From Idiomarina seosinensis (GTDB lineage: Bacteria; Pseudomonadota; Gammaproteobacteria; Enterobacterales; Alteromonadaceae): DNA of 64,000 nt. The position numbers and the translations under genes are program-made. Below the pieces are notes generated by a model. It worked only from the letters and a program-made list of their open reading frames with translations, ran no database searches and was not told the origin of the DNA. This document shows, piece by piece, positions 5,958-27,975 of the stretch; position 1 is the first letter of the stretch, and the number at the start of each line of letters is the position of its first letter. Location: assembly GCF_003987275.1 (NCBI RefSeq), contig NZ_PIQF01000003.1, positions 321,171 to 385,170 of the forward strand, read 5' to 3'.

Positions 5958-6461
5958 ATGTCCTGCGTTGATAAAGGATTTTCGCCCTATATTTCTCTGT
6001 TAATTTCTGGTTTAACTGTAGTCTTTGACCAAGTGATCAAGTGGCAGACGCAGCAATCAATAGCTTACGGTGATTCGATTTCATTGACCCCTTTTTTCAA
6101 TTGGGTACACACTTGGAACACTGGTGCGGCATTTGGCCTGCTTTCAAATGGTGGAGGTTGGCAGCGCTATTTTTTTATTGGGGTTGCTCTGCTAATGTCT
6201 GTGGCTTTAACGAGGTTGATCTTTAATAAAGTAAGTAAACGGGATGGCATTAGCTACGGGCTGATTCTTGGGGGGGCGGTTGGGAACCTCATTGACCGAC
6301 TGTTTCGTGGCTATGTTGTCGACTCCTTTCATCTAGGTTGGCAAACGTGGCAATTGCCAGTTTTTAATATTGCCGATATTGCAATTACCCTAGGAGTTAT
6401 CCTATTACTGTTAAGCAACTTGCAGGTCTCAATGATACCGAATCTACCGGGTTCTAAGTAA
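5958..6461 (+). CDS. lspA: Signal peptidase II (LspA), metal-island type paralogue
   Basis: Conserved FDQVIKW, NTGAAFGLL, GGAVGNLIDRLFRGYVVDSF and FNIADIAITLG motifs; immediately follows the CDF gene. Confidence 0.93.
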   Translation: MSCVDKGFSPYISLLISGLTVVFDQVIKWQTQQSIAYGDSISLTPFFNWVHTWNTGAAFGLLSNGGGWQRYFFIGVALLMSVALTRLIFNKVSKRDGISYGLILGGAVGNLIDRLFRGYVVDSFHLGWQTWQLPVFNIADIAITLGVILLLLSNLQVSMIPNLPGSK

Positions 6462-6536
6462 ATAGTAAGTATAATAATTAATATGGCCGAGCTTATTTTG
6501 GATGGATTAGGAATTTATATTGAGTAGGGTAATTGA

Positions 6537-6860
6537 ATGAAAATATCTTGGTTTTTAATACTGACTGTGCTCATTCATAGCTCTTTTGCCTGTGCTCCTG
6601 TGGCTGGTACTTTCAGTCAGTCTTCAATAAAGAGTGCAGGAGTTGCGTATGACTTAGTCTTAGAAATTGAGCGTGAAAATCAAGACTTAAATAAATCAAT
6701 ATATGATAGTAAACAACAAACACAACCTCATATTAGTTGCATTACTGGTTATAACCTCTTAATTTCAGCCGTGCCTGTTATTTTGGCACCCAACTCAAAC
6801 TCGGTAGGTTTTGACCAAAGCCTGACTCACCAACCCCCTGTACCTCCACCAAACGCGTAA
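6537..6860 (+). CDS. Small putative exported protein preceding the second czcCBA operon
   Basis: N-terminal hydrophobic signal, proline-rich C-terminus (QPPVPPPNA), operon position; no domain recognised. Confidence 0.5.
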   Translation: MKISWFLILTVLIHSSFACAPVAGTFSQSSIKSAGVAYDLVLEIERENQDLNKSIYDSKQQTQPHISCITGYNLLISAVPVILAPNSNSVGFDQSLTHQPPVPPPNA

Positions 6861-6907
6861 CCGTTAACTTAGACTTTTTAAAACCTATAAGTTAATGGAG
6901 AAGCAAC

Positions 6908-8155
6908 ATGAAGTATTTATACTTCGTGGCAGCCTTTTGCTTAGGTGCGCTAGTGCCTGTGGCGACGGCTGCGACGACAGATTTAAAGCTGAAAGAAGCG
7001 TTACAAAAAACGATCAAGAATAACCCTGAGTTACTGGAGTATGATTATAAAATACGAGCTGCAGGAGCACTGATAGAGCAGGCTGAGTTTTCAGCGAACC
7101 CAAGGGTATCTGCGGAAATAGAAAACTTTGCCGGCTCAGGACGGCTAGAAGGTATCAGTAACTCACAATTGACCGTATCCTTTTCTCAGCTCATAGAGTT
7201 AGGGGACAAACGGCAGTTACGAGTTAAAGCTGCAACCGAAAAAGAGAAAGCTCAGCGAGCAGAGTTTGAGTATCGTCAAATTGAGGTTTTGGCAGAAACC
7301 ACACAGCGTTTCTATGACATTTTAAAACTTCAGCAAGTCGCGCATACCAGCGAGCGTCAAATTCAGCGAACTGAGCGACTGATAAAAGTGGCACAGGAGC
7401 GTGTAGAAGCTGGCGCGGTGCCTAAATCCGAGGTTATTCGCATTAAATTACAGTTAGAGCGCCAATACGCTTTCTCTGACGAGTTGAACGGTAAACTGAA
7501 AAAGCAACAAGCTGAACTGGCTTCAATGTGGGCAGGCGAGCTCAATTTTACGCGCGTCTCTGGAGACTTTACTTTTCCGCTAAGCCTCCCGGAAAAAGCC
7601 AACGTGTTATCGGCTGTTAATCGGGCGCCGGAGTATTTGCGTTTACTGGACTCTGAGCAACTTCTACAAGCGCAAGCCAGAGCGTTAGCAGCGGACTCAA
7701 AGTCGGATATTACCGTTGGTGTCGGGGCTCGCTACAATAATGAGTTCGATGATGTAGGTTTAATCGTCCAGGCATCGATGCCATTGCAGTTCACTGACCC
7801 TAACGTCGGTCGCATAAAACAAAGCCGATTACTGCATCAGTCTATCCTGGCGCAGCAAAAACAGGTTCGGCAGCAACTAAAATCACTGGCTTTATCGCTA
7901 GTGCACAGTTTGCAAACTCACCAAAGTTATCTGCAAAAGATAAACCAGCGACTGATGCCGCTATCTGAACAGTTACTCGCACAAACTCAACAGGGTTACG
8001 CACGCGGAACGCACTCTTTGTTGCAAGTGTTAGACGCGCAAACAGAGTTAGCAAAACTCGAGTATGAAAAAATCTCCCGTCAACATGCGATTTACAGCGA
8101 CATCATCGAATTAGAGCGCATGACCGGACAGCCGTTTTTAGGAGTACAACAATGA
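6908..8155 (+). CDS. czcC: TolC-family outer membrane efflux protein, CzcC-like
   Basis: TolC/CzcC architecture, operon with czcB and czcA. Confidence 0.88.
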   Translation: MKYLYFVAAFCLGALVPVATAATTDLKLKEALQKTIKNNPELLEYDYKIRAAGALIEQAEFSANPRVSAEIENFAGSGRLEGISNSQLTVSFSQLIELGDKRQLRVKAATEKEKAQRAEFEYRQIEVLAETTQRFYDILKLQQVAHTSERQIQRTERLIKVAQERVEAGAVPKSEVIRIKLQLERQYAFSDELNGKLKKQQAELASMWAGELNFTRVSGDFTFPLSLPEKANVLSAVNRAPEYLRLLDSEQLLQAQARALAADSKSDITVGVGARYNNEFDDVGLIVQASMPLQFTDPNVGRIKQSRLLHQSILAQQKQVRQQLKSLALSLVHSLQTHQSYLQKINQRLMPLSEQLLAQTQQGYARGTHSLLQVLDAQTELAKLEYEKISRQHAIYSDIIELERMTGQPFLGVQQ

Positions 8156-9054
8156 AACTCAACACATTGATTACAATTATCTGCATTGCCAGTTTTTCAC
8201 TGCCCGTATTGGCTTATGAGAAAAAACACGAAGAGCATGAAGCACCCCATACCAATTTAAGTGATGCAGCAATAGAAAACGCGAAATTAACGTTGGCAAC
8301 AGCGAGCGCTCAAAGCATTCGAGTAAAGCAAACAATTTTCGGTGTAATAGCCCCCAATAATAACAATATTGTGCATATCGGAGCGAAGTACAAAGGTATT
8401 GTTACGTCACTAAAGGCCAATATCGGCGATGACATAAAAGCCGGGCAAACTCTTGCTGTTGTTGAGAATGTTACGACAGGCACGGCATTTGAAGTCATCA
8501 GCCCAATTAGCGGAGAGGTAACTGCACGTTTTACCAATGTTGGTGAAGTGGTTGAGCAAAAGCCATTATTTGAAGTCCTGGATCCATCATCGGTCTGGGT
8601 AGAGCTTTCAGCGTTCCCGGAGAACATTGAGTCGTTAGAAGAAGAGCAAACGACCTATGTGTACGACTTGCATCATCATAAAACCGTCGAAGGAACTGTG
8701 TCTTATATCTCGCCACAAATGACTGGCGGACACATTGCACGCGCACTTATCGAGTTGCCCAATCAGTCGGGGCATTGGCGACCGGGAATGCACGTAAAAG
8801 CGGATGTCGTTACAGACAGCTTTAACGCGAGCTTGGCGATAAACAATGATGCTGTTCAACGTTTAGAAGATAACCCCGTTGTTTTTATTAAAGAGGGTAA
8901 TCGTTTCGAAGCCAGGGAAGTTGAGTTAGGCCGAACTGACGGTGAATACACCGAGGTGTTATCGGGTATTGAGAATGGCGAAAGTTATGTCGTTGAAAAC
9001 AGCTACTTGATAAAGGCTGACATTCTAAAACAAGGCGCAGGCCAAAGCCATTAG
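8152..9054 (+). CDS. czcB: HME-RND periplasmic adaptor subunit, CzcB-like
   Basis: Signal peptide, KKHEEHEAPH, MFP fold; 4-nt overlap with czcC. Confidence 0.88.
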   Translation: MKLNTLITIICIASFSLPVLAYEKKHEEHEAPHTNLSDAAIENAKLTLATASAQSIRVKQTIFGVIAPNNNNIVHIGAKYKGIVTSLKANIGDDIKAGQTLAVVENVTTGTAFEVISPISGEVTARFTNVGEVVEQKPLFEVLDPSSVWVELSAFPENIESLEEEQTTYVYDLHHHKTVEGTVSYISPQMTGGHIARALIELPNQSGHWRPGMHVKADVVTDSFNASLAINNDAVQRLEDNPVVFIKEGNRFEAREVELGRTDGEYTEVLSGIENGESYVVENSYLIKADILKQGAGQSH

Positions 9055-9066
9055 GGAGAGTAAACA

Positions 9067-12000
9067 ATGATAGATGCACTCATTCGCTTTGCGGTTGATC
9101 GTCGATGGCTGGTGCTTGCCGCAACCTTGTTAGTAGCAGCTGCGGGCGTTTATAGCACATTAAAGCTACCCATCGATGCTGTGCCGGATATTACCAATGT
9201 TCAGGTACAGATAAATTCAGAAGCGCCAGGCTATTCGCCATTAGAAACCGAACAACGTATTTCTTATCCGGTGGAAACCGCGATGGCAGGTTTACCAAAG
9301 CTGGACTACACCCGCTCGATCTCACGCTATGGGTTGTCGCAAGTTACCGTGGTGTTTGAAGAGGGCACCGATATTTACTGGGCTAGACAGCAAATCAGTG
9401 AGCGATTGCAAAAGGTAAGGGGAGAAGTACCCGACGGTATCGAGCCGACGATGGGGCCAATAGCCTCCGGCCTTGGTGAAATTGTTAATTATGTAGTACG
9501 CGCGAAAGAGGGGGCTACCAATGCCGATGGCGAGGCGTATACGCCCGAGCAGTTGCGTACCATCCAGGATTGGATCATTAAGCCGCAACTGGTCAAGGTG
9601 CCCGGTGTTACCGAGATTAATAGTGTGGGGGGTTATGAAAAGCAATACCAGGTGGCTCCCATCCCCGGTCGTATGCTGGCCTATAAAGTGACCATGCAGG
9701 ACCTTTTGGCAGCATTGGATCTTAACAATAGAAACGCTGGTGCCGGTTATATCGAGAAAAATGGTGAGCAATGGTTGGTGCGTTCGCCTGGACAGCTTAA
9801 GACACTTGACGATATTCGTGATGTGGTCGTGACAAAACGTGATGATGCACCGGTGCGCGTGAGTGACGTGGCTGAGGTCAAACTGGGAGAACAATTACGC
9901 ACTGGCGCTTCAACCTCGGGCGAGAGCGAGGTGGTATTGGGCACGGCCATGATGCTTATTGGCGAAAACAGTCGCATCGTTGCACAGAATGTCGCCAATA
10001 AAATTGAGGAGGTGCAACGAAGCTTGCCAGACGGGGTGGTGATTGAAACGGTGTATAACCGTACTTCTCTCGTTGATAAAACTATTGCAACGGTCGAGAA
10101 AAACCTGTTTGAAGGTGCGGTGCTGGTTATTGTGGTGCTTTTCATTCTGCTTGGAAATGTCCGTGCAGCACTGATTACGGCGTGCGTTATTCCCTTGAGT
10201 ATGCTGTTTGCGGTAAGCGGCATGGTCGCCAACAAGGTGTCTGGTAATTTAATGAGCCTGGGCGCAATTGATTTTGGTATTATCGTCGATGGTGCGGTCA
10301 TTGTGGTTGAAAACGCTTTGCGACGGCTTGGAATTGCACAGCAACGCTTAGGCCGGGTACTTACCACTAAAGAGCGCTTAATTGAAGTAACCCATAGTAC
10401 TCGTGAGGTATTTAACCCTGCGGTATTTGGTGTGCTTATCATTATGCTGGTGTACTTGCCCATATTTGCGTTAAGTGGTGTTGAAGGCAAAATGTTTCAT
10501 CCCATGGCGTTTACTGTCGTAGCCGCGCTTTTAGGGGCTCTGATTTTCAGCGTTACCTTTGTACCCGCTGCTATTGCAATATTTGTCCGTGGCAATATTA
10601 AGCACGGTGAAAACCGAATAATGCGAGCCGCCCGCAAAGTGTATCAGCCGGTTTTACGGCAAACACTGAAGCTTCCAGTTGTCATTATTTTGCTTGGCTT
10701 TGGGCTGTTTGCGGTATCAATGTTTCAGGCGAGTCGCATGGGAACTGAGTTTTTGCCACAGCTTGATGAAGGCGATATTGCCATGCAAGCCTTGCGCATT
10801 CCGGGGACTGGCTTGCAGCAATCTATAGCAATGCAAAAAGATGTCGAGTCTGTGGTGTCACGCTTTGACGAAGTTAAACTGGTATTCTCAAAAATTGGTA
10901 CCCCGGATGTTGCGACCGACCCTATGCCACCGAGCGTCGCTGATACCATTATTATTTTAAAGGAGCGTGAGGACTGGCTAAACCCAGAAAAAACCAAAGA
11001 GCAACTGGTTGCTGAAATACGAACTGCTGTGCAAGAGCTTCCCGGTAATAAGTACGAGTTCACTCAACCGATTGAAATGCGGTTTAACGAACTTATTGCA
11101 GGCGTTCGAGCTGACTTGGGGGTTCGTATTTATGGCGATGACTTGCAAACGCTTAAACGGTTAGGCGACTCAGCCGCCGCAGTCATTCGCACCGTTAATG
11201 GCGCTGCTGATGTTCGGGTTGAACAAATGACGGGTTTATCGACACTCTCAGTGATACCTAAGCGTGATCATTTAGCGTTATTAGGCCTAACAGTCGCTGA
11301 TGTACAGCGAGCAGTTCAAGCTGCGGTTGGTGGAGTTCAGTCAGGGATTATTTACGAGGGGGATAAACGCTTCAAGCTAATGGTACGTCTCGACAAAGAA
11401 TGGCGTAAGAGCATTGAACAGCTTAAATCACTGCCTATTGATCTGCCTGCCGGCAACCCTGAGCTGCGCTATGTGCCGTTGGGAGAGGTCGCCGAATTGA
11501 GTTTGGAAAGTGGACCGAACCAAATTAACCGAGAAAGCAGCAAACGCAATGTTATTGTGAGTGCGAATGTTGAAGATCGTGATTTGGGCTCTTTTGTGGC
11601 AGATGTTCAGGATGCGCTAACGACTGAGGTTGATTTGCCAGCAGGTTATTGGGTTAACTACGACGGTACCTTTGAACAGCTGCAATCAGCTTCCCAACGG
11701 TTGAGTTTGGTTGTGCCATTAGCGCTGCTATTAATTATTGGCCTGCTATACAGTGCGTTTAATTCGCTGAGCAGTGCACTCGTCATATTCACAGGCGTTC
11801 CCTTAGGGCTGACCGGCGGGATATTCGCATTAGCGCTGCGTGATATGCCGCTATCAATTTCCGCTGCAGTCGGCTTCATTGCACTGTCGGGCGTGGCGGT
11901 TTTGAACGGCGTGGTCATGCTGACATTCATACGGCAACTGCTGCGCGACGGACTGCCATTGAAAGATGCGGTGTTTGAAGGCGCGCAACAGCGGTTAAGA

Positions 12001-12198
12001 CCTGTACTGATGACTGCTCTCGTAGCTAGCCTGGGCTTTGTCCCTATGGCATTTAATACCGGTGTCGGCGCTGAGGTACAGCGACCACTGGCTACTGTGG
12101 TAATCGGCGGCATTGTCTCGTCGACATTATTGACTTTGGTGGTGCTGCCAGCGCTTTACTACTTAGTGCAGCGCTTCAATGGAACTGCAAAAGCCTAA
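9067..12198 (+). CDS. czcA: HME-RND heavy-metal efflux transporter, CzcA/CusA family
   Basis: 1043 aa, CzcA-type start (LKLPIDAVPDITNVQVQINSEAPGYSPLETEQRISYPVE), RND helices (AIDFGIIVDGAVIVVEN). Confidence 0.95.
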   Translation: MIDALIRFAVDRRWLVLAATLLVAAAGVYSTLKLPIDAVPDITNVQVQINSEAPGYSPLETEQRISYPVETAMAGLPKLDYTRSISRYGLSQVTVVFEEGTDIYWARQQISERLQKVRGEVPDGIEPTMGPIASGLGEIVNYVVRAKEGATNADGEAYTPEQLRTIQDWIIKPQLVKVPGVTEINSVGGYEKQYQVAPIPGRMLAYKVTMQDLLAALDLNNRNAGAGYIEKNGEQWLVRSPGQLKTLDDIRDVVVTKRDDAPVRVSDVAEVKLGEQLRTGASTSGESEVVLGTAMMLIGENSRIVAQNVANKIEEVQRSLPDGVVIETVYNRTSLVDKTIATVEKNLFEGAVLVIVVLFILLGNVRAALITACVIPLSMLFAVSGMVANKVSGNLMSLGAIDFGIIVDGAVIVVENALRRLGIAQQRLGRVLTTKERLIEVTHSTREVFNPAVFGVLIIMLVYLPIFALSGVEGKMFHPMAFTVVAALLGALIFSVTFVPAAIAIFVRGNIKHGENRIMRAARKVYQPVLRQTLKLPVVIILLGFGLFAVSMFQASRMGTEFLPQLDEGDIAMQALRIPGTGLQQSIAMQKDVESVVSRFDEVKLVFSKIGTPDVATDPMPPSVADTIIILKEREDWLNPEKTKEQLVAEIRTAVQELPGNKYEFTQPIEMRFNELIAGVRADLGVRIYGDDLQTLKRLGDSAAAVIRTVNGAADVRVEQMTGLSTLSVIPKRDHLALLGLTVADVQRAVQAAVGGVQSGIIYEGDKRFKLMVRLDKEWRKSIEQLKSLPIDLPAGNPELRYVPLGEVAELSLESGPNQINRESSKRNVIVSANVEDRDLGSFVADVQDALTTEVDLPAGYWVNYDGTFEQLQSASQRLSLVVPLALLLIIGLLYSAFNSLSSALVIFTGVPLGLTGGIFALALRDMPLSISAAVGFIALSGVAVLNGVVMLTFIRQLLRDGLPLKDAVFEGAQQRLRPVLMTALVASLGFVPMAFNTGVGAEVQRPLATVVIGGIVSSTLLTLVVLPALYYLVQRFNGTAKA

Positions 12199-12221
12199 GT
12201 GGAGGCCTTAGCTAATTGCAA

Positions 12222-12250
12222 AGCACGCCCCGACTTGGGCGTGCTTTTTT
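12222..12250 (+). terminator. Rho-independent terminator after czcA
   Basis: AGCACGCCC-CGACTT-GGGCGTGCT followed by a T tract. Confidence 0.85.
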
Positions 12251-12377
12251 ATTGCTATATCGATGAGGAAGGTAAGAAGTTTTTGGCGACTCAGTGCTTA
12301 GAGTTGTGTCGTTCAGGTAATACTGATGTGTAATATTCTTAAATATATATTATGCCGAGTGAGCCTCAATTGCTAAT

Positions 12378-12402
12378 GTTCCCAAATTGCAATAACGGGA
12401 AC
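12378..12402. repeat. Inverted repeat GTTCCC-N13-GGGAAC (left copy)
   Basis: GTTCCC AAATTGCAATAAC GGGAAC; same arms and spacing as 16740-16764. Confidence 0.85.
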
Positions 12403-12549
12403 AAGCAAACTCACTAAAAACGGGCTATTTCCCCCTTTATACCCCCTTAAGTACTCAAAATCACGTTTTACAGCAAAAAAAGGAATTCGGAAATGGCCGA
12501 AGTACAAGCGCTTAAACAGCCGGATACCGTGAAGCTGACTAGCTACCTT
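12378..12549 (+). repeat. Left direct repeat: promoter plus truncated 5' end of the small recombinase gene
   Basis: Aligns closely to 16740-16910 from GTTCCC through ...GATACCGTGAAGCTGA(C/T)TAGCTACCTT; similarity ends abruptly on both sides. Confidence 0.85.
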
Positions 12550-12576
12550 TGTTACCAACGGAGTAAAATTTATCTA
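12493..12576 (+). pseudogene. Truncated remnant of the small tyrosine recombinase (MAEVQALKQPDTVKLTSYL...)
   Basis: ATG at 12493 with a product matching the first ~19 codons of the 16854 ORF, then divergence and a stop. Confidence 0.7.
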
Positions 12577-12949
12577 AGTTAAGATGAGCCTAAAAACTTG
12601 GACCACCTCGGAGCTAGTCTGATGGTTTCATATGGAATGCTACTTTGAGCGCCAGCGTGGTAATACGCAGATTTTTGTAGAGTAAAGGAAGCTGCTAGGC
12701 AAGCTGAAGCTACCAGCCGCCACAAAAGAGTGGTGGTGAAGGAAACTGATAATGATAATTAGTAGATGTTATATAAAGCTAGTGAGTACCTCTAGTCATC
12801 ATGATTTAAAAGATATATCACTGTGTTGATATCCAATCGAAGTATTCTTCTTTGTAATAGAAATCAGGATAAAACCAAAAATTTTAAGGATTTGCCTTGG
12901 GATTTTTTCTTGGAGGAGTATACTGTATGAATGAACAGTAGAGGTGTAT

Positions 12950-14479
12950 ATGATAGATAATACAGCCATGTTGCTACAGCCTAATGCCCTAGAAAGTCTA
13001 GTTGACACGGTTGATCAGTATAGGACTGATGCTAACCAGTTGCTTGACCAAAGTACACGCGGGCAGAAAGGTCAGTTTATGACTCCTGCTTCTGTTGCTC
13101 AAATCTTGTCTGGGATGTTTAGAAATCTAGATGGTGAGGTTCGGGTCCTTGACGCCGGTGCTGGTGTTGGTTCATTAACTGCATCATTGGTGGCGAGAGC
13201 GTTGACCGAGTTCGCTCCAACTTCAATTAGCGGCAACGCATGGGAGCTGGAGAACGTTTTAGTGGAGCGCTTGGAGGATTCGTTTGGCCTATGTGAGGAA
13301 GCTAGCCAGGAATCCGGCGTAGCTTGGAAGTCACATATAAACCAAATAGACTTTATCGAGCATGCCGTAGAAATAATAAATGCTCGAACTAGCGGTAAGA
13401 CAACCCCTGCTTTCAATAAAGCTATTCTAAACCCTCCTTACCTAAAAATTGCGGCGTCTAGCCGAGCTCGTGCAAGTTTACGAAGTGTCGGTGTTGAAAC
13501 CGGAAACTTGTATTCATGCTTTGTAGCACTTGCTTTAATGCTTTTGGAGGACGGTGGCGAGTTGGTCGCTATAATTCCGCGCAGTTGTTGTAATGGCCCA
13601 TATTTCAAAGATTTTCGTCGGGTGTTGCTTGATGGTAATAACTTGAGCAAGATTCATATCTTTGAAAGCCGCACAAAAGCCTTCAAAGGCGATAAAGTAT
13701 TACAAGAAAACGTTATCTTTCATATCGTGAAAGGTGAAGAGCAAGGGGATGTTGAGATCACTTCAAGCACCTGCGCAGAAGACTCGGATCCGGTCGTTCG
13801 AGAAGCTGATTTCAGTGAGGTTGTGAACCCGACTAATCCAGATCGCTTTATACATATAGTGACCAATGACGAGCAGGCTAAAATAGCTACTCGTGTTGGG
13901 GGAATGCCTTGCTCATTAGATGAACTTGGTGTTACTGCTAGTACAGGGAAGGTGGTTGATTTTCGGACTAAACCGAACCTACGACATTATCCTAGCTCTG
14001 GTACTGTGCCATTAATTTATCCAATGCATTTTAAAAATGGCCTTATCGAATATCCAGTAGAGAGCAAGAAAAAGCCAAATGCCCTCGAGCTTAATTCCGA
14101 TACACAGAGGCAGTTGGTTCCAAACGGCACCTACGTATTAACGAAGCGTTTAACATCGAAAGAAGAAGCTCGTCGTATTGTTGCTGGCTTATATACAGCG
14201 GATATAGCGGAAGTAGATTTAGTTGGCTTTGAGAACAAAACTAATTATTTTCACGCAAACGGCCACCCCTTAGACAATGACTTTGCAAAAGGCTTATGGG
14301 CTTATCTGAATAGCAATATAGTGGACCAGTATTTCAGGCAGTTTAATGGACACACTCAAGTAAATGCGGCTGACTTGAGGATGCTTCGTTATCCAAGCAG
14401 AGAGCAATTAGTTGCTATGGGTAAACAGATCTATGATTTTGACCAAGAACTCTTCGATGAGCTTGTGAAGAAGTTGTAA
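12950..14479 (+). CDS. Type II DNA adenine methyltransferase, BsuBI/PstI-like (Eco57I-methylase fold)
   Basis: RVLDAGAGVGSLTASL SAM-binding motif and ILNPPYLKI (NPPY) catalytic motif; convergent with a PstI-like REase. ATG 12950 preferred over the tracked 12944 because of the GAGG at 12941-12944. Confidence 0.9.
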   Translation: MIDNTAMLLQPNALESLVDTVDQYRTDANQLLDQSTRGQKGQFMTPASVAQILSGMFRNLDGEVRVLDAGAGVGSLTASLVARALTEFAPTSISGNAWELENVLVERLEDSFGLCEEASQESGVAWKSHINQIDFIEHAVEIINARTSGKTTPAFNKAILNPPYLKIAASSRARASLRSVGVETGNLYSCFVALALMLLEDGGELVAIIPRSCCNGPYFKDFRRVLLDGNNLSKIHIFESRTKAFKGDKVLQENVIFHIVKGEEQGDVEITSSTCAEDSDPVVREADFSEVVNPTNPDRFIHIVTNDEQAKIATRVGGMPCSLDELGVTASTGKVVDFRTKPNLRHYPSSGTVPLIYPMHFKNGLIEYPVESKKKPNALELNSDTQRQLVPNGTYVLTKRLTSKEEARRIVAGLYTADIAEVDLVGFENKTNYFHANGHPLDNDFAKGLWAYLNSNIVDQYFRQFNGHTQVNAADLRMLRYPSREQLVAMGKQIYDFDQELFDELVKKL

Positions 14480-14492
14480 TCCGTTATAAAGG

Positions 14493-14527
14493 AAGAGTTG
14501 GCCCCGTGAGGCCAACTCTTCTATTTT
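14493..14527. terminator. Bidirectional terminator between convergent M and R genes
   Basis: AAGAGTTGGCC-CCGTGA-GGCCAACTCTT followed by CTATTTTTT. Confidence 0.85.
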
Positions 14528-14536
14528 TTGTCAGCT

Positions 14537-15535
14537 TCACTGCTTGATGAAAAAGTTGCGAGAGGTATCTTCATGTATCCAAAGATAGGTTCCATCAGCC
14601 AAGTTTTTTTGTGATGACTGACGAGCAGCGGCTGCTTTCCAGGTTAAATAAGTTGTTGTAAAACCAACTCCCGATTTGCCGTTGCGTTTCGCAAACGCCT
14701 CTAAGCTCTCCTTTTTATGAATATCAACCTCACCATCACTGGTAACAGCTTCAATGACCCAAAGGTGTTCAGTTTCTTTGTTAATTAGTAATACGTCAGG
14801 CATGGAGTCATTGATCGTTATCTCAAGTCCAGCCTCTGAGAGGGCTTGTCGTTCTTTTTCAGTAATTCTGTCACCATCCCCATCGTCAACATAGATGACA
14901 TCATAGCCCTTCAAAAACCTTGGTGCATAAACTTTATGGCTTACACGAATTAAACGACTGTGCGGTGTCTCAACTGATTCAGCTGTATATCGAGCCTGTT
15001 CCGCTTGAACAGCTAAACGCTCGCGCTTTACATCTTCCTGCATCCATTTTTCGGCTAAGTCTTGCCATTCGTTTTCCGGGGCCTTGAGAATTTTTAAAAA
15101 CTCTGGTGCGATTCTGTATGCCGAGTTTGCCGACTTTGCAACCGGATGGCCAGGGTTGAATTCAGCCTTTGAGTTTAAATAAACTTTCTCGACGGCACCT
15201 ATCTCCCAGAATGGCTTCAACCAATAATCTCGACCCTCACGATCAAGTTTTATATTCCTTTCTCTCTGTAAAATTCCGACATGAGTGCCTATGTGAGCAA
15301 CAGATGCTCCATCACAAAATTCTAGTCCCTTCTTGGCTGCCTTTTTATACCAACTAGGCTCATCACACAGTAAAGCGAAAATAACGTCTACTTTGTTATC
15401 ACTGGACTGATCGACTTTAGATAGAACGTCTCTCACCCTCTGTTTGGTTACGCCTTGATAACTGTCGGGGACAACTATTTTGTCTTGAGCTATAGCCTGG
15501 TCCCTCAATGCTATTTTGTCATCTTCGATGCTCAT
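14537..15535 (-). CDS. BsuBI/PstI-like type II restriction endonuclease
   Basis: PDVLLINKETEHLWVIEAVTSDGEVD(I)HKK core resembling the PstI/BsuBI REase C-terminal domain; partner MTase adjacent. Confidence 0.88.
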   Translation of the reverse strand: MSIEDDKIALRDQAIAQDKIVVPDSYQGVTKQRVRDVLSKVDQSSDNKVDVIFALLCDEPSWYKKAAKKGLEFCDGASVAHIGTHVGILQRERNIKLDREGRDYWLKPFWEIGAVEKVYLNSKAEFNPGHPVAKSANSAYRIAPEFLKILKAPENEWQDLAEKWMQEDVKRERLAVQAEQARYTAESVETPHSRLIRVSHKVYAPRFLKGYDVIYVDDGDGDRITEKERQALSEAGLEITINDSMPDVLLINKETEHLWVIEAVTSDGEVDIHKKESLEAFAKRNGKSGVGFTTTYLTWKAAAARQSSQKNLADGTYLWIHEDTSRNFFIKQ

Positions 15536-15762
15536 CTAATTTTCCTTTCCAAGCTCGTATTACAATCTATTATTATTATCCTGCCTGATAGCTAGTTTTT
15601 AGCATCCATATCTTTTATTATTTTTTGACAAGTAAAAAGGGCCCCGGTTATTGGTAGAAATCTTGCCTATAATTTTCCCCGATTCATTAAGTAAAGCTGG
15701 AGCATTTCAGAGCGTATCCATACGCTTGCTTACTCAAGTCACGTTTCTCCCTGTGTAAATAA

Positions 15763-16275
15763 CTACAAATGACGCGATACGAATTTTTCTAGGATACTTA
15801 GTTGCTCACTACTCATTGTAAACTCTGTGGAGCCAACTCGGCCTGAAATCGATTTTCCCTGGGAGAGTTTTCTAATAAACTCGGGTTTTACTTGGTAGCT
15901 TAGCGTTTCTAAAGCATATGGGCTACCGGAAGACGTTGTCATCACGTTTCCATCATGAGAGCCAGAGCCGACATGATAACTTTGGTTATCGATAAGAAAG
16001 TAGAGCTCGTGATTTTCGAGATACAGCCAGTCAGTACTTTGGCTGTCTAATGCGCCATTTCGCGTGAAATAGATTAGATATACAGAATCGCCGTCAGACG
16101 TTCCTTTATTAACGTCCCAAGACAGTGCGTAACTGATATCAAATGGACCCGCAGTGATCATCTCTGTCTCAAGGTAGGGGTCATAGGTAGTTTCTATTGT
16201 GGGAGTTGCAGGAGTGAACGCGCAGCTTGATAAAAAGAGGATTATAGGGGCTGATGAAAACCATAATTTATTCAT
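15763..16275 (-). CDS. Putative lipoprotein of unknown function
   Basis: Internal start MNKLWFSSAPIILFLSSC gives a lipobox (FLSSC) within the tracked 15763..16365 ORF. Confidence 0.55.
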   Translation of the reverse strand: MNKLWFSSAPIILFLSSCAFTPATPTIETTYDPYLETEMITAGPFDISYALSWDVNKGTSDGDSVYLIYFTRNGALDSQSTDWLYLENHELYFLIDNQSYHVGSGSHDGNVMTTSSGSPYALETLSYQVKPEFIRKLSQGKSISGRVGSTEFTMSSEQLSILEKFVSRHL

Positions 16276-16324
16276 AAATGCCTCACTTAAAAAGCGGACT
16301 ATTAAGTTCGCCGAAAATATCGAA

Positions 16325-16603
16325 TTAAATTTTAGAGTAGATTTTTGAAGCAAACTCGCGAGCACTTAGCTCTAAATCTTTTGGAGTGCCCAACATTGTT
16401 GGCAGCGATTTGACTCTACCGTAAATGACATCTGAAAGCTCTTCTACGCTAAATTTAGTAGGTACTTTTTTCAAGTTCGATACCGCTTGACTCAGGTTTT
16501 TTTTATCAATGGGGTGAGAACTAAACCAAGTAGGTCGTGACGCCCAACACTCTATTGCTTTTTGTATTTCCTCAGTTGTCATAACGAGCCTCCTTATTAC
16601 CAC
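16325..16603 (-). CDS. Hypothetical small protein
   Basis: 92-aa ORF (likely start MTTEEIQKAIECW); no family recognised. Confidence 0.45.
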   Translation of the reverse strand: MVIRRLVMTTEEIQKAIECWASRPTWFSSHPIDKKNLSQAVSNLKKVPTKFSVEELSDVIYGRVKSLPTMLGTPKDLELSAREFASKIYSKI

Positions 16604-16739
16604 TGTAGTTATTGAATAAAACCCTTCACAAGCAAAAGCTATCTAGCTGTTCTGGCTTTAGTCGATAAGGTCTAAGTTAAACCTTCAAATTTTGAAACAT
16701 AGATAATAGTAATTGATTACTAGCACAGCATACTAGTGT

Positions 16740-16764
16740 GTTCCCAAAATATTGAAATGGGAAC
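16740..16764. repeat. Inverted repeat GTTCCC-N13-GGGAAC (right copy)
   Basis: GTTCCC AAAATATTGAAAT GGGAAC, ~90 bp upstream of the recombinase start. Confidence 0.85.
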
Positions 16765-16910
16765 AAGCAAACCCACTAAAAACGGGCTACTTCCCCCTTT
16801 ATACCCTCTTAAGTACTCAAAATCACGTTTTACAGCAAAAAAGGAACTAGACTATGGCCGAAGTACAAGCGGTTAAAGATCTGGATACCGTGAAGCTGAT
16901 TAGCTACCTT
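16740..16910 (+). repeat. Right direct repeat: promoter plus 5' end of the intact recombinase gene
   Basis: Near-identical to 12378-12549 apart from the palindrome spacer and scattered substitutions. Confidence 0.85.
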
Positions 16911-17414
16911 CTCAAACGAACTTATGGTCAGCAAATTGCTGATGTTTGGGATGTGGGCTTGAACTTGGCATTACGGATCTCAGATTTACTATCCATCAAG
17001 TTTGAAAATATTCAAGACGAGCGTCTCACCCTGGTTGAAGGGAAAACCTCGAAACAAGCAACCATTAAATTGAACGACAAAGCGCGGTCGATTATTGCTC
17101 GCATTAAAGAGGAACACCCAGACCATATTTACCTGTTTCAGTCCTATCGCAACCAATGGTCCAAAGGTTTGGACGAGGCCCCGATTAGCCGCCGTTACGT
17201 TTCGCGGGCGTTCGCCGCGATAGGGGAGGAAGTTGGTATTAAACTGGGAACTCACTCAATGCGGAAAACACGAGGTTATCATCTTTACAAGAACACCAAT
17301 GACATCGCCAGGGTAATGAAGATGCTACGTCATAGCTCTGAGGCTGTGACGCTGCGTTATATTGGCATTACTCAGGAAGATGTTGACCGTGACTTTGCTG
17401 AGTTAGAGCTATAG
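16854..17414 (+). CDS. Small tyrosine recombinase (catalytic domain only, 186 aa)
   Basis: NLALRISDLLSIK (Arg I), TKxxK region, GTHSMRKTRGYH (HxxR), LRHSSEAVTLRYIGI (His/Tyr); no separate core-binding/arm domain. Confidence 0.92.
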   Translation: MAEVQAVKDLDTVKLISYLLKRTYGQQIADVWDVGLNLALRISDLLSIKFENIQDERLTLVEGKTSKQATIKLNDKARSIIARIKEEHPDHIYLFQSYRNQWSKGLDEAPISRRYVSRAFAAIGEEVGIKLGTHSMRKTRGYHLYKNTNDIARVMKMLRHSSEAVTLRYIGITQEDVDRDFAELEL

Positions 17415-17437: not shown

Positions 17438-17484
17438 TTTCGTATACCTAGAGTAACAACCAAGCGAGATTAAAACCTATATCA

Positions 17485-17529
17485 CCTAATGGCAGTTACG
17501 GCTGCAGTTAATTAACTGTCAATTAGGAG
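17485..17529 (+). promoter_or_regulatory. Leader inverted repeat overlapping the Shine-Dalgarno of the 17537 gene
   Basis: CCTAATGGCAGTTA (17485-17498) pairs with TAACTGTCAATTAGG (17513-17527); perfect palindrome CAGTTAATTAACTG at 17505-17518; SD AGGAGA starts in the right arm. Confidence 0.6.
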
Positions 17530-17536
17530 AATATTT

Positions 17537-17914
17537 ATGTCGAATGTAACGGTCGTATACACCAAGTCAGAGCTCGAACGTGCTATTGAGAGACAAGACA
17601 AAACAATAGCTGTAAAAAGCGCGTCGTTGGCTGATGACGTGAAAACATTGAAGTCAGCATCATCTGGTGCCTTTGCGTTAGCTGTCGGTTCAGCTGGAGT
17701 CTTTGCTACCAACTTCTGGAATCCGCTGGGATGGGGCTCAGGTATTATCGGAACCTTATCTACCGGCTCACTGATCACCGCCATAGTGGCGATAGGGCTC
17801 AGCACAACGTTGCTGTTTGCTATTTACAATGACTACTCAATAAAAGGGCGAACGTCGATTCGACTGGCTGGTGGTAATAGCATCGATGCCGACCTGGTTA
17901 TGGAGAGGGACTAG
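17537..17914 (+). CDS. Small membrane protein (about two TM segments), partner of the LytTR gene
   Basis: Charged N-terminal helix, then hydrophobic stretches (GAFALAVGSAGVFATNFWNPLGW, GSLITAIVAIGLSTTLLFAIY); followed 2 nt later by the LytTR gene. Confidence 0.6.
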   Translation: MSNVTVVYTKSELERAIERQDKTIAVKSASLADDVKTLKSASSGAFALAVGSAGVFATNFWNPLGWGSGIIGTLSTGSLITAIVAIGLSTTLLFAIYNDYSIKGRTSIRLAGGNSIDADLVMERD

Positions 17915-17916
17915 TT

Positions 17917-18258
17917 ATGGGTAGCATGAGACGAAACATTATTGCCGTTAAAACGCGTCCTGGTGAGGTTCGTTTTGTTGCCGTTGCTTCCATCGAGCGT
18001 GTGGAAGCGTTTGGTAATTACGTGAAGATTCACTTCGGTAACGAGCGGGTGCTTCATCGAGCAACGCTATCGGATATGGAAGAAATACTGGATGATAGAT
18101 TCATTCGAATCCACCGAAGCCATATTGTAAAACGCGAGCATCTTCGAAAGCTTCTTTCCGAGCTGGGTCGATACCAGGAAGTCGAACTAGCTGATGAAAC
18201 AGTGCTTCCGCTTGGAGGTAACTATAAGCGCCAACTAATGCTCGAAGTTGGTTTGTAG
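17917..18258 (+). CDS. Stand-alone LytTR DNA-binding domain regulator
   Basis: VASIERVEAFGNYVKIHF...LHRATLSDMEEILDDRFIRIHRSHIVKREHL..., characteristic LytTR motifs with no receiver domain. Confidence 0.88.
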   Translation: MGSMRRNIIAVKTRPGEVRFVAVASIERVEAFGNYVKIHFGNERVLHRATLSDMEEILDDRFIRIHRSHIVKREHLRKLLSELGRYQEVELADETVLPLGGNYKRQLMLEVGL

Positions 18259-18264
18259 TGAGTT

Positions 18265-18300
18265 AGCTCAGGGTGTGTCGATCCTGGGCTTATTTTTTTT
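18265..18300 (+). terminator. Probable Rho-independent terminator
   Basis: AGCTCAGG...CCTGGGCT followed by TATTTTTTTT. Confidence 0.6.
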
Positions 18301-20318: not shown

Positions 20319-20915
20319 TTATTTCGAAAAGCTTAGGTTCTGTTCGTTACTATCTCCTAACTTGAAACTCTCAGCGAGCCGGGACGCAGCATTCGCCAAC
20401 TCATGACAGTGCATTGGCTCCCTAACCGAACTGTCGGCAACTTCAAAATTTAGGTTTGTACGACAATGCTGATTGTACTTGGCAGCGATGCTGTTTAAGT
20501 ATTTTTTGAGCGTATGAACCGCAAGTTTGTTTGGTTGGGTCCAGCTGTCTCGAATCATAAGAAGCAAATCGCGGTGAGAGCAGTCCATATCGATGCCGTA
20601 ACGATTCAAATGCAGCACACAGGTTAGGTATGCTGTTTCGGCGGCTTTGTCTGAATTCGGGTGCCAGTTGCTATGCGCCAGCTGAGTAGCGTATTCAGCT
20701 GCAATCTGAAAGATGGTCTCGAGACTGACGTCGAAGCCATCGTACTTTCTGCCGATAACGATAGTAATTTTTATCAAGGCTGAAGTATTCACCGCAGGCT
20801 CTACCTTGCCGTGTAATGCTAAGTGCGCTTTGACGATATCGCTTGCGTTGAGGAACGAGAGCTTCATTGTGAGTTCCTCTTTGTTAAGGCGTTTAAATAG
20901 CCCTGGCAGACTCAA
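20319..20915 (-). CDS. Hypothetical island protein, co-transcribed with an AlpA-like gene
   Basis: 198-aa ORF overlapping the AlpA-like stop by 4 nt. Confidence 0.6.
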   Translation of the reverse strand: MSLPGLFKRLNKEELTMKLSFLNASDIVKAHLALHGKVEPAVNTSALIKITIVIGRKYDGFDVSLETIFQIAAEYATQLAHSNWHPNSDKAAETAYLTCVLHLNRYGIDMDCSHRDLLLMIRDSWTQPNKLAVHTLKKYLNSIAAKYNQHCRTNLNFEVADSSVREPMHCHELANAASRLAESFKLGDSNEQNLSFSK

Positions 20916-21142
20916 TACTTGATTTTTGGGACTGACAAACCGCGCTTTTCATCAATACGATCCATCATCCACTCATCAACTTCCGAGTCTAACCAGGCGA
21001 CGTTTCTTCCCAGTGTGTTAACAGGTTTGGGGAACTTGCCTTCCCCCATCATTTTATAAATTGAGGTGCGCCCCAGCCCGACGCGTTCTTGAACCTCGCT
21101 TAATCGTAGAAACCGCATGAGCTTCTCCTTATTCTGTGTCAT
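20912..21142 (-). CDS. AlpA-family regulator / excisionase-like
   Basis: MRFLRLSEVQERVGLGRTSIYKMMGEGKFPKPVNTLGRNVAWLDSEVDEWM. Confidence 0.92.
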   Translation of the reverse strand: MTQNKEKLMRFLRLSEVQERVGLGRTSIYKMMGEGKFPKPVNTLGRNVAWLDSEVDEWMMDRIDEKRGLSVPKIKY

Positions 21143-21252
21143 AGGATTAGTAGGAATTGAGATGAATTAAGGCGAATAAAGAACCTACCGAATTTCAGGC
21201 CTATATCACGCACGTGCATTCAAGAATCGAAAACAAAACATGGAGACACAAA

Positions 21253-21726
21253 ATGCACGAGCAAAATGCCGAGTATGTAACGAATGGGCCAATGACTGAG
21301 GTTGATGTGCTCAACAAAGCGTCTGAGATACTGGAGACGAAGTTTTTGAAGGGGGAGGGTTTTACCAGTCCGTCTGCGGCAAAAGACTTCCTGAGGTACA
21401 AGCTGGCGCATCAAAAGCGTGAGGTGTTCGCCATCTTGCTAATGGATTCACAGCACCGGCTGATTGAGTACAAAGAACTGTTCTTCGGCACGATCAACGC
21501 GGCACCGGTGTATCCCCGTGAGGTGATGAAAGAAGTGCTTCAGCAAAACGCCGCTGCCATCATCCTGGCGCACAACCATCCGTCGGGTGTGACCGAGCCA
21601 TCGGAAGCTGACAAGCGTGTGACGACGCGTATCAAGGATGCACTCAATCACATCGACGTCCCCGTGCTTGACCACATCGTAGTAGGCCAAGACACGGTTT
21701 CGTTTGCTGAAAGGGGGCTGTTGTAA
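21253..21726 (+). CDS. radC: RadC-like JAB/MPN domain protein
   Basis: AHNHPSGVTEPSEAD JAMM motif; short island-type RadC. Start MHEQNAEY preferred over the tracked 21214. Confidence 0.92.
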   Translation: MHEQNAEYVTNGPMTEVDVLNKASEILETKFLKGEGFTSPSAAKDFLRYKLAHQKREVFAILLMDSQHRLIEYKELFFGTINAAPVYPREVMKEVLQQNAAAIILAHNHPSGVTEPSEADKRVTTRIKDALNHIDVPVLDHIVVGQDTVSFAERGLL

Positions 21727-21815: not shown

Positions 21816-22505
21816 TTACTTACGGCTTGTAGTAAACGAAGGGCGGCCACGTTGATAAAGCGTTGTACTCTCCTTGCATAGGTAGCTGTAATGCCTAAAA
21901 GCCTCTCGAATTTCCTGACTGGATGAATTAAACGGGCCTTTTAAGCGACGGTATGACGGCGTTGAGCCATGAATTAAATACTCGGTAGGGCCAGCGTTAA
22001 CGCCACCCGTACTATACCAGGCATCTCTAATGATTTTCCCTAACTCTGAGTTATCACCAGGTCCCAAGTTGCCTACCTGCCTAAATACATCGTTATTAAC
22101 GAAAATAACAATATGGTAATGCTCGTATGGTGACTGTATGCTTTGCTCGGCCTTACGGGCATATCTCACAGTGCAAGGATGTGCATAGCCTTTGAGTAAC
22201 CTTTCTCTGTCATATTTCGCCTTAACTTTCCGGTTAACAGCTCTGATGAAATGCTCCATTGGCGGTTCAAGGTGTAAAGGAATACCGGCTACAGGCACTC
22301 TCAAATCAAAGCGAACAGCCAGCGTACGTGGATGTTCATCAAGCGCTCTGGTCATTGTGTCATGCAGACCATCTAAGGGCTCCTGAATATACGGTACATG
22401 CTGAGGCCAAAGAGGAAGGCCTCTGTATGAGCTGTCGTAGTAGAGTGTTTGGTTGTGGTTCATTGGATTACGTATTGGTAAATTCATAATTAGCTCCATG
22501 ATCAT
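21816..22505 (-). CDS. Inovirus Gp2-like / YagK-YfjJ C-terminal domain protein
   Basis: Rep-like pattern: YEHYHIVIFVNNDVF, KAKYDRERLLKGYAHPCTVRYARKAEQ, GGVNAGPTEYLIHGS. Confidence 0.65.
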   Translation of the reverse strand: MIMELIMNLPIRNPMNHNQTLYYDSSYRGLPLWPQHVPYIQEPLDGLHDTMTRALDEHPRTLAVRFDLRVPVAGIPLHLEPPMEHFIRAVNRKVKAKYDRERLLKGYAHPCTVRYARKAEQSIQSPYEHYHIVIFVNNDVFRQVGNLGPGDNSELGKIIRDAWYSTGGVNAGPTEYLIHGSTPSYRRLKGPFNSSSQEIREAFRHYSYLCKESTTLYQRGRPSFTTSRK

Positions 22506-22979: not shown

Positions 22980-24557
22980 CTACCGCCAACGTGAAAACGT
23001 TTGAGCTTGCAGAGGCGTTTGGCTCAAAGGTGGATTCATCAGGTAGAATTGAGACAGCTTTTCTTTATTGCAGAAGTCAGACCACATATAAGGGTCATAA
23101 ACAAGCTTTGGCTTCAAGTCGATAACAACTAGGCCAGTATTTTTAAATGTAAAGACTGTTATTTCCCCCCAATTAATAAGTAAATCCAAAACTTGGTCTC
23201 TGACGTCTATATCGCGTAAAATAGCTAGTCTGCTTCTACGAAGATCGGCAGCCCTATAATACCTTTCGCCATTGTCGCGAACCTGTTGAAAATAGCTGAG
23301 AACGCTTAAGGTATTTTTTATATAATCAGGGTATTGCTGAAAATATTGTAGAAAATCGTCAGAGCAGTGAAAGACTATTCGTTCTGCGTCTTGAAGAATA
23401 CCCACACTTATGAGGGCCTCAGAGCCTAGCTCAAAATAAGTCAAAAGAGCGGCCAAGCGTGTTATGTTTTCAAATAATTTACTGCCATGATCCGTCGCAT
23501 ATTCTAATCGTCCTCCTGGGTTTTGCGAATTCTCGATTTCATTGTATAAGTCTATTGCGTACTTTCGTGCCTCGTCAGAAAACTTAATTAGCTTACGAGA
23601 TCCTGAGTCATAGTTCTGTCGCACCTGCTTCAGTTCATCAAGAAGCTCTTCGAGCCTTGCGGTAAAATTGCGTTCTCCTTCCTTGTCTTGTGTTATTAAG
23701 TTATTAGACTCTATGAATCTAGAGCCTTGATTATTAAGTGGGCAGCTGAAAAGAAATCTAGCCCAGAAGCCAATACCTGCGGCTTCATCACCATGTTTAT
23801 CGTTGAACTTTTTGATAGCAGCATCTTGAACCAAAAGTGATAGCGTTAGTCTCGTATCTTCAATAGACTGATTGCCAGATGTTTTTCGATGTTTTAAAAG
23901 TGATTCGCCTGACCATTGAGCGTTAAAAAACGGAAGATGTCTAAGGGTATGGCCGTTAAGTGCAATACCTCCTTCACTGGATAACACTGCTATGCAGCCA
24001 TATCCAGCATACATTTCCTCTTGGATTGCTTCTCCGGTTGAATCCTCTACAAGCATTGTTTCCTTAGCCGGAGGCTGCGGTTTCTCAGCTATGAATTTGT
24101 TTAGTTCATCTTGGGCCGTTTCTATGCGTTGTGCATTACCGGATACCAGCGCTGCTTTTAGCTTATTTCTCTTGGCTTCTTGTTGCTCCTTAAAGACCTC
24201 TAGTTTTACCTCATAAATTTCTCTATTCTTCTCGTACTCTCTCCTTTGCTCTTTTTCAAAGTTATAAATTGGCTTGTTAACTCGCGCCGCAACAGCAGAC
24301 TTTCTGAGTCCTGATTCGCCTTTAGTGCATATATACATCGATGTCGGTATTCGACCACCATATACTGGTTCAACATCGGCCAGGCATTGGACGACAGTTG
24401 AAATTGCGCCGAGTAAGACATTCAATGTCAATAAATTCGGCGCTTGAACAGTATTTCCAATTGACTCTACCCCCGCGTGTATTATCGGGCAATTCGGGAC
24501 CCCTCCCTCTAAACTTCTACCCGAAGTAGGTGGTGTCATCATTAAATCATGATGCAT
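22980..24557 (-). CDS. DUF3987/YfjI-like primase-helicase-type protein
   Basis: Motifs resembling DUF3987 proteins (PTSMYICTKGESGLRKSAVAARV, EEMYAGYGCIAVLSSEGGIALNG, ARFLFSCPLN). Start MHHDLMM preferred over the tracked 24605. Confidence 0.75.
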   Translation of the reverse strand: MHHDLMMTPPTSGRSLEGGVPNCPIIHAGVESIGNTVQAPNLLTLNVLLGAISTVVQCLADVEPVYGGRIPTSMYICTKGESGLRKSAVAARVNKPIYNFEKEQRREYEKNREIYEVKLEVFKEQQEAKRNKLKAALVSGNAQRIETAQDELNKFIAEKPQPPAKETMLVEDSTGEAIQEEMYAGYGCIAVLSSEGGIALNGHTLRHLPFFNAQWSGESLLKHRKTSGNQSIEDTRLTLSLLVQDAAIKKFNDKHGDEAAGIGFWARFLFSCPLNNQGSRFIESNNLITQDKEGERNFTARLEELLDELKQVRQNYDSGSRKLIKFSDEARKYAIDLYNEIENSQNPGGRLEYATDHGSKLFENITRLAALLTYFELGSEALISVGILQDAERIVFHCSDDFLQYFQQYPDYIKNTLSVLSYFQQVRDNGERYYRAADLRRSRLAILRDIDVRDQVLDLLINWGEITVFTFKNTGLVVIDLKPKLVYDPYMWSDFCNKEKLSQFYLMNPPLSQTPLQAQTFSRWR

Positions 24558-24780
24558 TCCGCTCCTCCTTACGCGCATTAATCCAGTCAATAACTTCTTG
24601 CTCAATGTAACGAACCGACCGCTCTCCTAGGCTAATCGGCTTTGGGTAAGTGGGATCGTACTGTTTCGAGTTTTTATCTAACTTCGCAAAGTGGTACGAT
24701 TTGGAAATCGACAATAAATCAAGTACCTCTTGAAGTCGCAGCACCTTTCCAGGTAACTGTGCTATGTTGTGTTCTTGCAT
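24547..24780 (-). CDS. AlpA-like helix-turn-helix regulator
   Basis: LRLQEVLDLLSISKSYHFAKLDKNSKQYDPTYPKPISLGERSVRYIEQEVIDWINAR. Confidence 0.85.
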   Translation of the reverse strand: MQEHNIAQLPGKVLRLQEVLDLLSISKSYHFAKLDKNSKQYDPTYPKPISLGERSVRYIEQEVIDWINARKEERNAS

Positions 24781-26504: not shown

Positions 26505-27824
26505 CTAACTTCTTATCGAAGCTGATAAACTCAAAGACCCTTTAGACGCCTCTTCAATATGCCCAGACCACCATTCCATCATTTCCCTGCGCTGCTTCAG
26601 ATAAGTAGAGCGGTTATATGCCGCTCGAATTTTGTCTTTGTCCTTGTGCGCTAGCGCAACTTCAATCACGTCTCTGTCAAAGCCTTGCTCGTTCAGTGTG
26701 GTGCTGGCTAGTGCTCTGAGTCCGTGAGCAACTAAACGACCTTCAAAGCCCATGCGCTTGAGTGCCCTGTTAGCGGTTTCTTTATTAGCATGCCTTAGGG
26801 GAGCCCTATCGGAAGGGAATATAAACTCTCTATGGCCACTCAATGGCTGCATGAACTCCAGCAATGCTAGTGACTGCTTAGTTAATGGTACTTCGTGAGG
26901 GCGTGCCATTTTCATTCGTTCAGCGGGGATCGCCCATATGGCTTTATCGAAATCGATTTCTTCCCAGCGGGCTTGCACGGCCTCACCTGGACGGACCATT
27001 GTATGCAGTTGCCATTCAATCAAGCAACGTGTCACGTATTTAATATTGGCAAAGTTTAAAGCTCGCATGAGCTCCGGTAGCTCATCAGGAGCCAGTGTTG
27101 GCATGTTCTTAACATCTGATGATGGGATCACCTTTTTAATCCCTGTAAGAGGGTTATGTTTGATGTAACCGACGTTACAGGCGAAAGACATTACGTTATT
27201 CATCCTGCGAGCGACCTTACGCGCCATTTCAAAGCTATTGCGTTTGGTAAGTGCCTCAATGGCTTCTATGGCTTTCGGTGCCGTTAACTGCTTAATGGGT
27301 ATTGATCCGATTCGTGGGAACACGTCATTCTCTAGCGAGCGCCAGAGCTTTTGAGCTGTGCCAGGCTTTAAGTCCTTGCTGTGTATCTCGAACCAACGCT
27401 CAGCTACTGCTTTGAATGTATTGCCAGCGGCAGCCCGCTTTGCCTCGAATTGCTCGTCACGATGAGATATGGGATCGATATCCTGGGCGAGTAGCTCCCT
27501 ATTTTGCTGGCGCTTTTCTCTCGCTAACTTTAAAGAAAGATCAGGATAGTTACCCAGTGTTAGGTTTTTTCGACGTTTAGTAAACGGCTCCGAGTAGTTA
27601 AAGATCCATACCTTTTTACCCGAGGGTTTGATTCTCAAGAACAGCCCTTGCCCGTCAGAAAGATTATATTCTTTATCTTTTTTCTTCGCAGCATCGATCT
27701 TCTTGGGAGTGAGTGGCTCAGGGATTTTAGGCATTTTTGTAACACACCTTAAGTACATTTCGTTCCGTGTTACATAACAGTGTACAAAAAGTTGTGGATA
27801 GTAAGAAACTAAAAAGGACTTCAA
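26505..27824 (-). CDS. P4-type tyrosine integrase
   Basis: N-terminal PEPLTPKKIDAAKKKDKEYNLSDGQGLFLRIKPSGKKVWIF (DUF4102), catalytic HTMVRPGEAVQARWEEID, HGLRALASTTLNE, ALAHKDKDKIRAAYNRSTY; next to tRNA-Phe. Confidence 0.95.
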   Translation of the reverse strand: MKSFLVSYYPQLFVHCYVTRNEMYLRCVTKMPKIPEPLTPKKIDAAKKKDKEYNLSDGQGLFLRIKPSGKKVWIFNYSEPFTKRRKNLTLGNYPDLSLKLAREKRQQNRELLAQDIDPISHRDEQFEAKRAAAGNTFKAVAERWFEIHSKDLKPGTAQKLWRSLENDVFPRIGSIPIKQLTAPKAIEAIEALTKRNSFEMARKVARRMNNVMSFACNVGYIKHNPLTGIKKVIPSSDVKNMPTLAPDELPELMRALNFANIKYVTRCLIEWQLHTMVRPGEAVQARWEEIDFDKAIWAIPAERMKMARPHEVPLTKQSLALLEFMQPLSGHREFIFPSDRAPLRHANKETANRALKRMGFEGRLVAHGLRALASTTLNEQGFDRDVIEVALAHKDKDKIRAAYNRSTYLKQRREMMEWWSGHIEEASKGSLSLSASIRS

Positions 27825-27899: not shown

Positions 27900-27975
27900 T
27901 GGTGCCCGGAGGCGGAATCGAACCACCGACACGAGGATTTTCAATCCTCTGCTCTACCGACTGAGCTATCCGGGC
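27900..27975 (-). tRNA. tRNA-Phe (anticodon GAA), CCA encoded
   Basis: Reverse complement GCCCGGATAGCTCAGTCGGTAGAGCAGAGGATTGAAAATCCTCGTGTCGGTGGTTCGATTCCGCCTCCGGGCACCA folds as a canonical cloverleaf. Confidence 0.97.

Follow-up and report, generated by a model that had tools for sequence, protein, structure and literature searches.

Within a 64,000-nucleotide stretch of the Idiomarina seosinensis genome (the window, analysed here as a whole), a restriction-modification (R-M) system lies between two copies of a palindrome, each followed by the start of a gene for a small tyrosine recombinase. This arrangement raises the question of what the palindromes are for. A preliminary description took them for the crossover sites of a self-contained mobile unit, with the R-M genes as its cargo. 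The reading favoured here, with a probability of roughly 0.55, is that a minimal recombinase and its own composite site serve to resolve multimers of the island that carries them, and that the same sequence acts as a homology anchor for island accretion. The R-M pair would then best be explained as ordinary island cargo and not as a circle bounded by palindromes.

The palindromes and the recombinase

Both palindromes read GTTCCC-N13-GGGAAC, with the same arms and different spacers, exactly as first described. Behind each of them follow a shared leader of about 90 bp and about 19 recombinase codons, the right copy leading into an intact gene of 186 codons and the left one being truncated at about 12549. 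In self-alignment, positions 12377-12549 and 16739-16910 are 88% identical over 172 bp, in a match that begins at the palindrome and ends at codon 19. The BsuBI/PstI-like R-M pair announced between the palindromes is also complete, its endonuclease domain adjoining an N6-methylase as in type II systems of this kind; compared with plasmids, the endonuclease gives distant matches only. The features of this segment are as follows (strand in brackets).

12378..12402 (+), left palindrome (site I), arms GTTCCCAAA/AACGGGAAC, core TTGCAAT at 12387-12393
12403..12492 (+), leader of the left copy, holding a degenerate accessory site; mosaic breakpoint at about leader positions 83-97
12493..12549 (+), recombinase stub, first 19 codons, truncated (self-alignment); same truncation in G148, G186 and G233
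12944..14479 (+), type II N6-adenine DNA methyltransferase, 511 aa, Eco57I domain (PF07669)
14537..15535 (-), BsuBI/PstI-family restriction endonuclease, 332 aa (PF06616)
15763..16275 (-), small lipoprotein-like ORF of no family, lipobox-like LSSC read by eye
16325..16603 (-), 92-aa ORF of no family (ORF listing, domain search)
16740..16764 (+), right palindrome (site I), arms GTTCCCAAA/AATGGGAAC, core ATATTGA at 16749-16755
16812..16848 (+), site II, imperfect inverted repeat of wider span (AGTACTC...GGAACT) that overlaps the ribosome-binding site; weak in the window copy
16854..17414 (+), tyrosine recombinase of 186 aa, intact, consisting of the catalytic domain only (R41, K64, H134, R137, H160, Y169)

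The 186-aa protein carries the Phage_integrase domain (PF00589, E 1.5e-20 in the domain search) with the R-K-H-R-H and Y residues of tyrosine recombinases, all six of which are invariant in 34 sequences. Its structure is predicted with confidence to have a fold close to those of XerA, lambda Int and Cre, with just two helices before the catalytic domain and no core-binding domain.

In the complete 2.69-Mb genome, the exact pattern GTTCCC-N13-GGGAAC occurs four times, and still at only four sites when a spacer of 12-14 bp is allowed, each of them directly upstream of a recombinase copy. Two of these are the palindromes at 12378 and 16740 of the window and two belong to other loci, on contig C1; all four front copies of the 186-aa recombinase, one of which is truncated. 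The reversed control pattern gave no match across the whole genome, and the linkage between palindrome and recombinase is more than chance. With two mismatches, the motif is not significant in the 64-kb window taken alone. Among 19 congeneric genomes, the exact palindrome is confined to those having recombinase copies, and of its 19 occurrences 16 adjoin the gene or a remnant of it, two are solo remnants and one is apparently due to chance. The two solo palindromes (L201, 1501-1525; L173, 3490-3535) are intact and keep about 20-30 bp of leader, the recombinase being gone; they are possibly remnants or target sites. At another locus (L158, about 12494) an apparent IS30-family element ends within the palindrome, whose left arm has been lost.

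The Idiomarina copies give the consensus GTTCCCRAA-N7-AAYGGGAAC for site I, in which the arms hardly vary and the 7-bp centre takes about ten forms.

Conservation and covariation in the family

For a wider comparison, 80 loci with relatives of the recombinase (60-99% identity) were retrieved from Idiomarina, Aliidiomarina, Rheinheimera, Shewanella, Pseudoalteromonas, Vibrio, Psychromonas and other genera. In most of these homologues from marine Gammaproteobacteria a palindrome of 25-29 bp with TTCCC-type arms starts 104-118 bp upstream of the gene. With a threshold of at least 7 of the 9 arm positions paired, 72 of 87 loci have such a palindrome. The expectation that it would accompany the homologues was thus borne out for most of the 80, but about a fifth of them lack a recognisable one. 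Upstream of distant homologues on Gram-positive plasmids there are inverted repeats without shared arms. Homologues of about 36% identity stand at one end of Streptococcus satellite phages (e.g., MK448537, 9496-10035).

The homologous loci have a further inverted repeat at the start codon (site II), wider at about 38 bp and with the arms of site I. Its mean match to the site I arm of its own locus is 11.2 of 14 positions, against 8.0 for shuffled leaders. Between the two sites, the presence of C or G at one position of the arms co-varies (Fisher p 1e-6, relatedness ignored), and divergent arms are altered jointly at both, as in ACTTTCC (L022), CTACTAC/CTATTAC (L029) and GGTGCCC (L104). The score of site II in the window copy is 9, which the best shuffle also reached, and the Shine-Dalgarno sequence overlaps with the right half of this repeat. 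We infer that the recombinase binds both sites.

Taking into account the linkage at fixed spacing among homologues, the covariation of the arms with site II, and the palindrome as the exact left limit of the module against no fewer than 14 unrelated flanks, this sequence is very probably the DNA site of the adjacent recombinase. This part of the earlier proposal, in which the palindrome was its recombination site, can be kept, and strand exchange would take place there.

It might be argued that the palindrome is a mere operator of the recombinase gene and that recombination takes place elsewhere. Palindromes at a fixed distance upstream are typical of operators, and site II overlaps the start region of the gene; nevertheless, the arms co-vary with the recombinase clade as well as with site II, the arm-7-arm geometry suits the core of a tyrosine recombinase site, and the homology of copies with different flanks breaks at the palindrome, which makes a purely regulatory role quite unlikely.

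The module as part of an island backbone

To the right of the intact recombinase, the window continues into a genomic island with the following features.

17473..18298 (.), block B, a 125-aa ORF and a LytTR-domain ORF; several Idiomarina islands have it conserved on the right-hand side of the module
20912..21142 (-), AlpA regulator (PF05930)
21214..21726 (+), RadC-like JAB protein (PF04002)
21816..22505 (-), YagK/YfjJ (inovirus Gp2-like) protein (PF11726)
22980..24605 (-), DUF3987 protein (PF13148)
26505..27824 (-), P4-type island integrase with an Arm-DNA-bind_3 domain (domain search)
27900..27975 (-), tRNA-Phe, the island integration site, adjoining the integrase

Read from the integration site, the order is tRNA-Phe, P4-type integrase, DUF3987, YfjJ-like gene, RadC, AlpA, block B and the module. 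I55-type islands are defined by the same set of backbone genes (PMC12595487), and an integrase beside a tRNA gene together with AlpA, RadC and YfjJ/Gp2-like genes is what the window contains. A repeat of the tRNA-Phe 3' end at the far end of the island was not found within the 64-kb window. At the same locus of genome G029 (L172), a 1.4-kb insertion at tRNA-Phe has a direct repeat of the tRNA 3' end on either side (about 6250 and 7640, reverse orientation), which gives the attachment sequence of the island. In genome G125 the same site has no island, and 200 bp separate czcA from tRNA-Phe.

The two other islands of this genome with the module (L009 and L010) carry Gabija and DarTG, and Lamassu, a type I R-M system and a Sir2-like protein. 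Copies of block B are found at 17473-18298 of the window, at 5770-6595 of L009 and at 18384-19209 of L010; the block-B protein gave no match on plasmids. In some Idiomarina islands inserted defence cargo separates the module from block B; in others there is none. To the left of the palindrome, the window holds two stacked metal-resistance clusters (1-4455 and 4650-12180), either of which can adjoin the palindrome in other genomes.

The same surroundings recur among the 80 homologous loci: in 58 the first gene upstream is DUF2787 or RadC, and 57 have a YfjJ-like gene, nearly always downstream. RadC precedes the palindrome by at most 4 kb in 62 of the 80, so in the family the palindrome is not an element boundary; outside the Idiomarina copies it is an intergenic site of the backbone and not the end of an element. 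The module is part of the backbone of tRNA-inserted defence islands with P4-type integrase, AlpA, RadC and YfjJ.

A composite history

The arrangement around the R-M genes is a composite. Positions 1-12549 of the window are 98.2% identical to genome G128, and shorter tracts of the same flank are 99.1% identical to G131 (6180-12549) and to I. baltica (6854-12549). The 25 bp of the left palindrome are identical in the three, behind the same left flank. At this junction, the recombinase of G131 and I. baltica is intact and no R-M system follows, while an apparent IS3-family insertion interrupts the G128 gene at codon 36. On the other hand, the segment formed by palindrome, 19-codon stub and methylase is found in three genomes of another genus (G148, G186 and G233), 97.4-97.5% identical over 923 bp; the metal-resistance cluster beside it is a different one there, the methylase is broken and the right palindrome is missing. 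As far as roughly leader position 83-97 the left copy of the window matches G128 and G131, and beyond it the other genus, which places an exchange within the leader; this would most simply be homologous recombination. A crossover in the 7-bp core was considered as the cause of the left junction and rejected, the breakpoint being in the leader.

Further to the right, the window island is 91-93% identical to G131. From the right arm of its palindrome onwards, the leader of the right copy is about 99% identical to G128 and G131, while the 7-bp core and the left flank differ. Such an edge of homology fits site-specific exchange, and gene conversion running to the edge of homology would fit it too. 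Mosaic breakpoints are also present inside the recombinase gene, so homologous recombination acts as well. The idea that cores and their left flanks always move together was discarded: the cluster-1 flank has two types of core, and one core is found with several flanks.

These data bear on two accounts of the double copy. The 88% identity of the two copies over 172 bp could suggest that the left one arose from the right one by simple local duplication; this is contradicted by the orthologues, since the left copy belongs to a tract of 12.5 kb that is 98% identical to G128 (and, where compared, 99% identical to G131 and I. baltica), the module at the orthologous junctions is intact or broken differently, and the 3' part of the left copy matches the genus of G148, G186 and G233 rather than the right copy. 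This account is hardly credible.

According to the preliminary description, the 4,362-bp segment would excise and integrate as a circle through the palindromes. In its favour, the segment is flanked by two intact palindromes in direct orientation, the palindrome is the left edge of the module in unrelated flanks, and G131 shows the layout expected after deletion. However, the junction of truncated recombinase and methylase is shared at 97% with genomes that lack the right palindrome, the left flank exists at 98-99% identity without R-M genes, and a search of 399 genomes of the family gave no second locus in which palindromes bound the R-M segment. Recombinases that require homology in the core would be hindered by a mismatch at six of seven positions, and this is the difference between TTGCAAT and ATATTGA. 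Excision as a circle is therefore very improbable. Nor do the palindromes mark the borders of an element against empty sites, given the junction shared with the other genus, the breakpoint in the leader and their position in the backbone. Most of what the preliminary description had itself named as counterevidence was found, as far as the mobile unit is concerned. What stands of its tandem accumulation is that module copies accrete in islands and decay: the decayed copies in tandem at L035/L161 and L162 show that accretion recurs, but not as a palindrome-bounded, excisable unit.

In the window, segments of islands would have been joined by homologous recombination through the palindrome and leader (about 100 bp) and adjoining shared sequence, which would be the reason why two copies of the module flank the R-M genes. 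The left copy would already have been dead at the time of joining.

Resolution or conjugative transfer

In the favoured reading, palindrome, leader and recombinase would constitute one module, with a composite site immediately upstream of the gene. Strands would be exchanged at site I, in the 7-bp variable centre between its 9-bp arms, and site II would probably be both an accessory site and a means of autoregulation. The most likely task of the module would be the resolution of island copies, excised or replicating, that have formed multimers or fused, by analogy with TnpI at the irs of Tn4430. This task is favoured by an anatomy that is most like TnpI/irs, namely a core inverted repeat, an accessory motif and a site upstream of its own gene. 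In Tn4430 and Tn5401, the core inverted repeat and accessory motifs of irs lie directly upstream of the recombinase gene, and in Tn5401 binding of the recombinase to the site also modulates expression (PMC7157771). The module shares the inverted-repeat core site immediately upstream of the gene, but its accessory motif is a wide inverted repeat with the arms of site I instead of direct repeats, its protein has no core-binding domain, and a Tn3-type transposase was not recognised among the ORFs read.

The minimal tyrosine recombinases of the FimB/FimE type are proteins of about 200 aa, with the catalytic domain only, acting at short inverted-repeat sites. The module resembles them in size, single catalytic domain and short inverted-repeat sites, although an inverted pair of sites and an invertible segment were not found at it.

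The strongest rival explanation is that the protein is a tyrosine-recombinase-like conjugative relaxase, with palindrome and leader as its oriT, and that the islands are mobilizable by helper conjugation systems. Its strength derives from MobK (pIGRK), TcpM (pCW3) and MpsA (SGI1), which by description likewise consist of a catalytic domain without the core-binding domain and have inverted-repeat oriTs directly upstream (PMC9299015, PMC8152469, PMC6414798). MpsA is encoded on a genomic island, as the module is, but a partner like MpsB was not identified. Related islands are reported to be without recognised transfer genes (PMC12595487). Inverted repeats upstream would be equally expected of a res site and of an oriT. 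Nevertheless, site I is a symmetric arm-spacer-arm structure with an unconserved centre, while a nick site should be conserved, and over half of the plasmids with distant homologues are typed as mobilizable or conjugative, so that a recognised relaxase is already there. The relaxase reading is consequently unlikely; its corollary, that a large marine family of defence islands thought to be without transfer genes has an overlooked mobilization unit of minimal relaxase and oriT, is likewise unlikely.

No description of this module of recombinase plus site was found in the literature searched. The window island resembles the I55/CP4-57-type islands in its insertion at a tRNA/tmRNA gene, tyrosine integrase, AlpA, RadC and Gp2-like genes, and defence cargo including type II R-M systems, and the accessible part of their description contains nothing on a further small recombinase that has a palindromic site (PMC12595487).

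Significance

A gene of about 190 codons with a site of about 115 bp, present across marine Gammaproteobacteria, would give defence islands a second DNA-processing function beyond the integrase. The small recombinase and its site offer clear arm specificities (GTTCCC, GCTTCCC, ACTTTCC and GGTGCCC). As regards R-M genes, the window calls for caution, in that repeated palindromes linked to a recombinase need not bound a mobile unit. Whether the module resolves multimers or starts conjugation, the distinction would help to explain how defence islands persist and spread.
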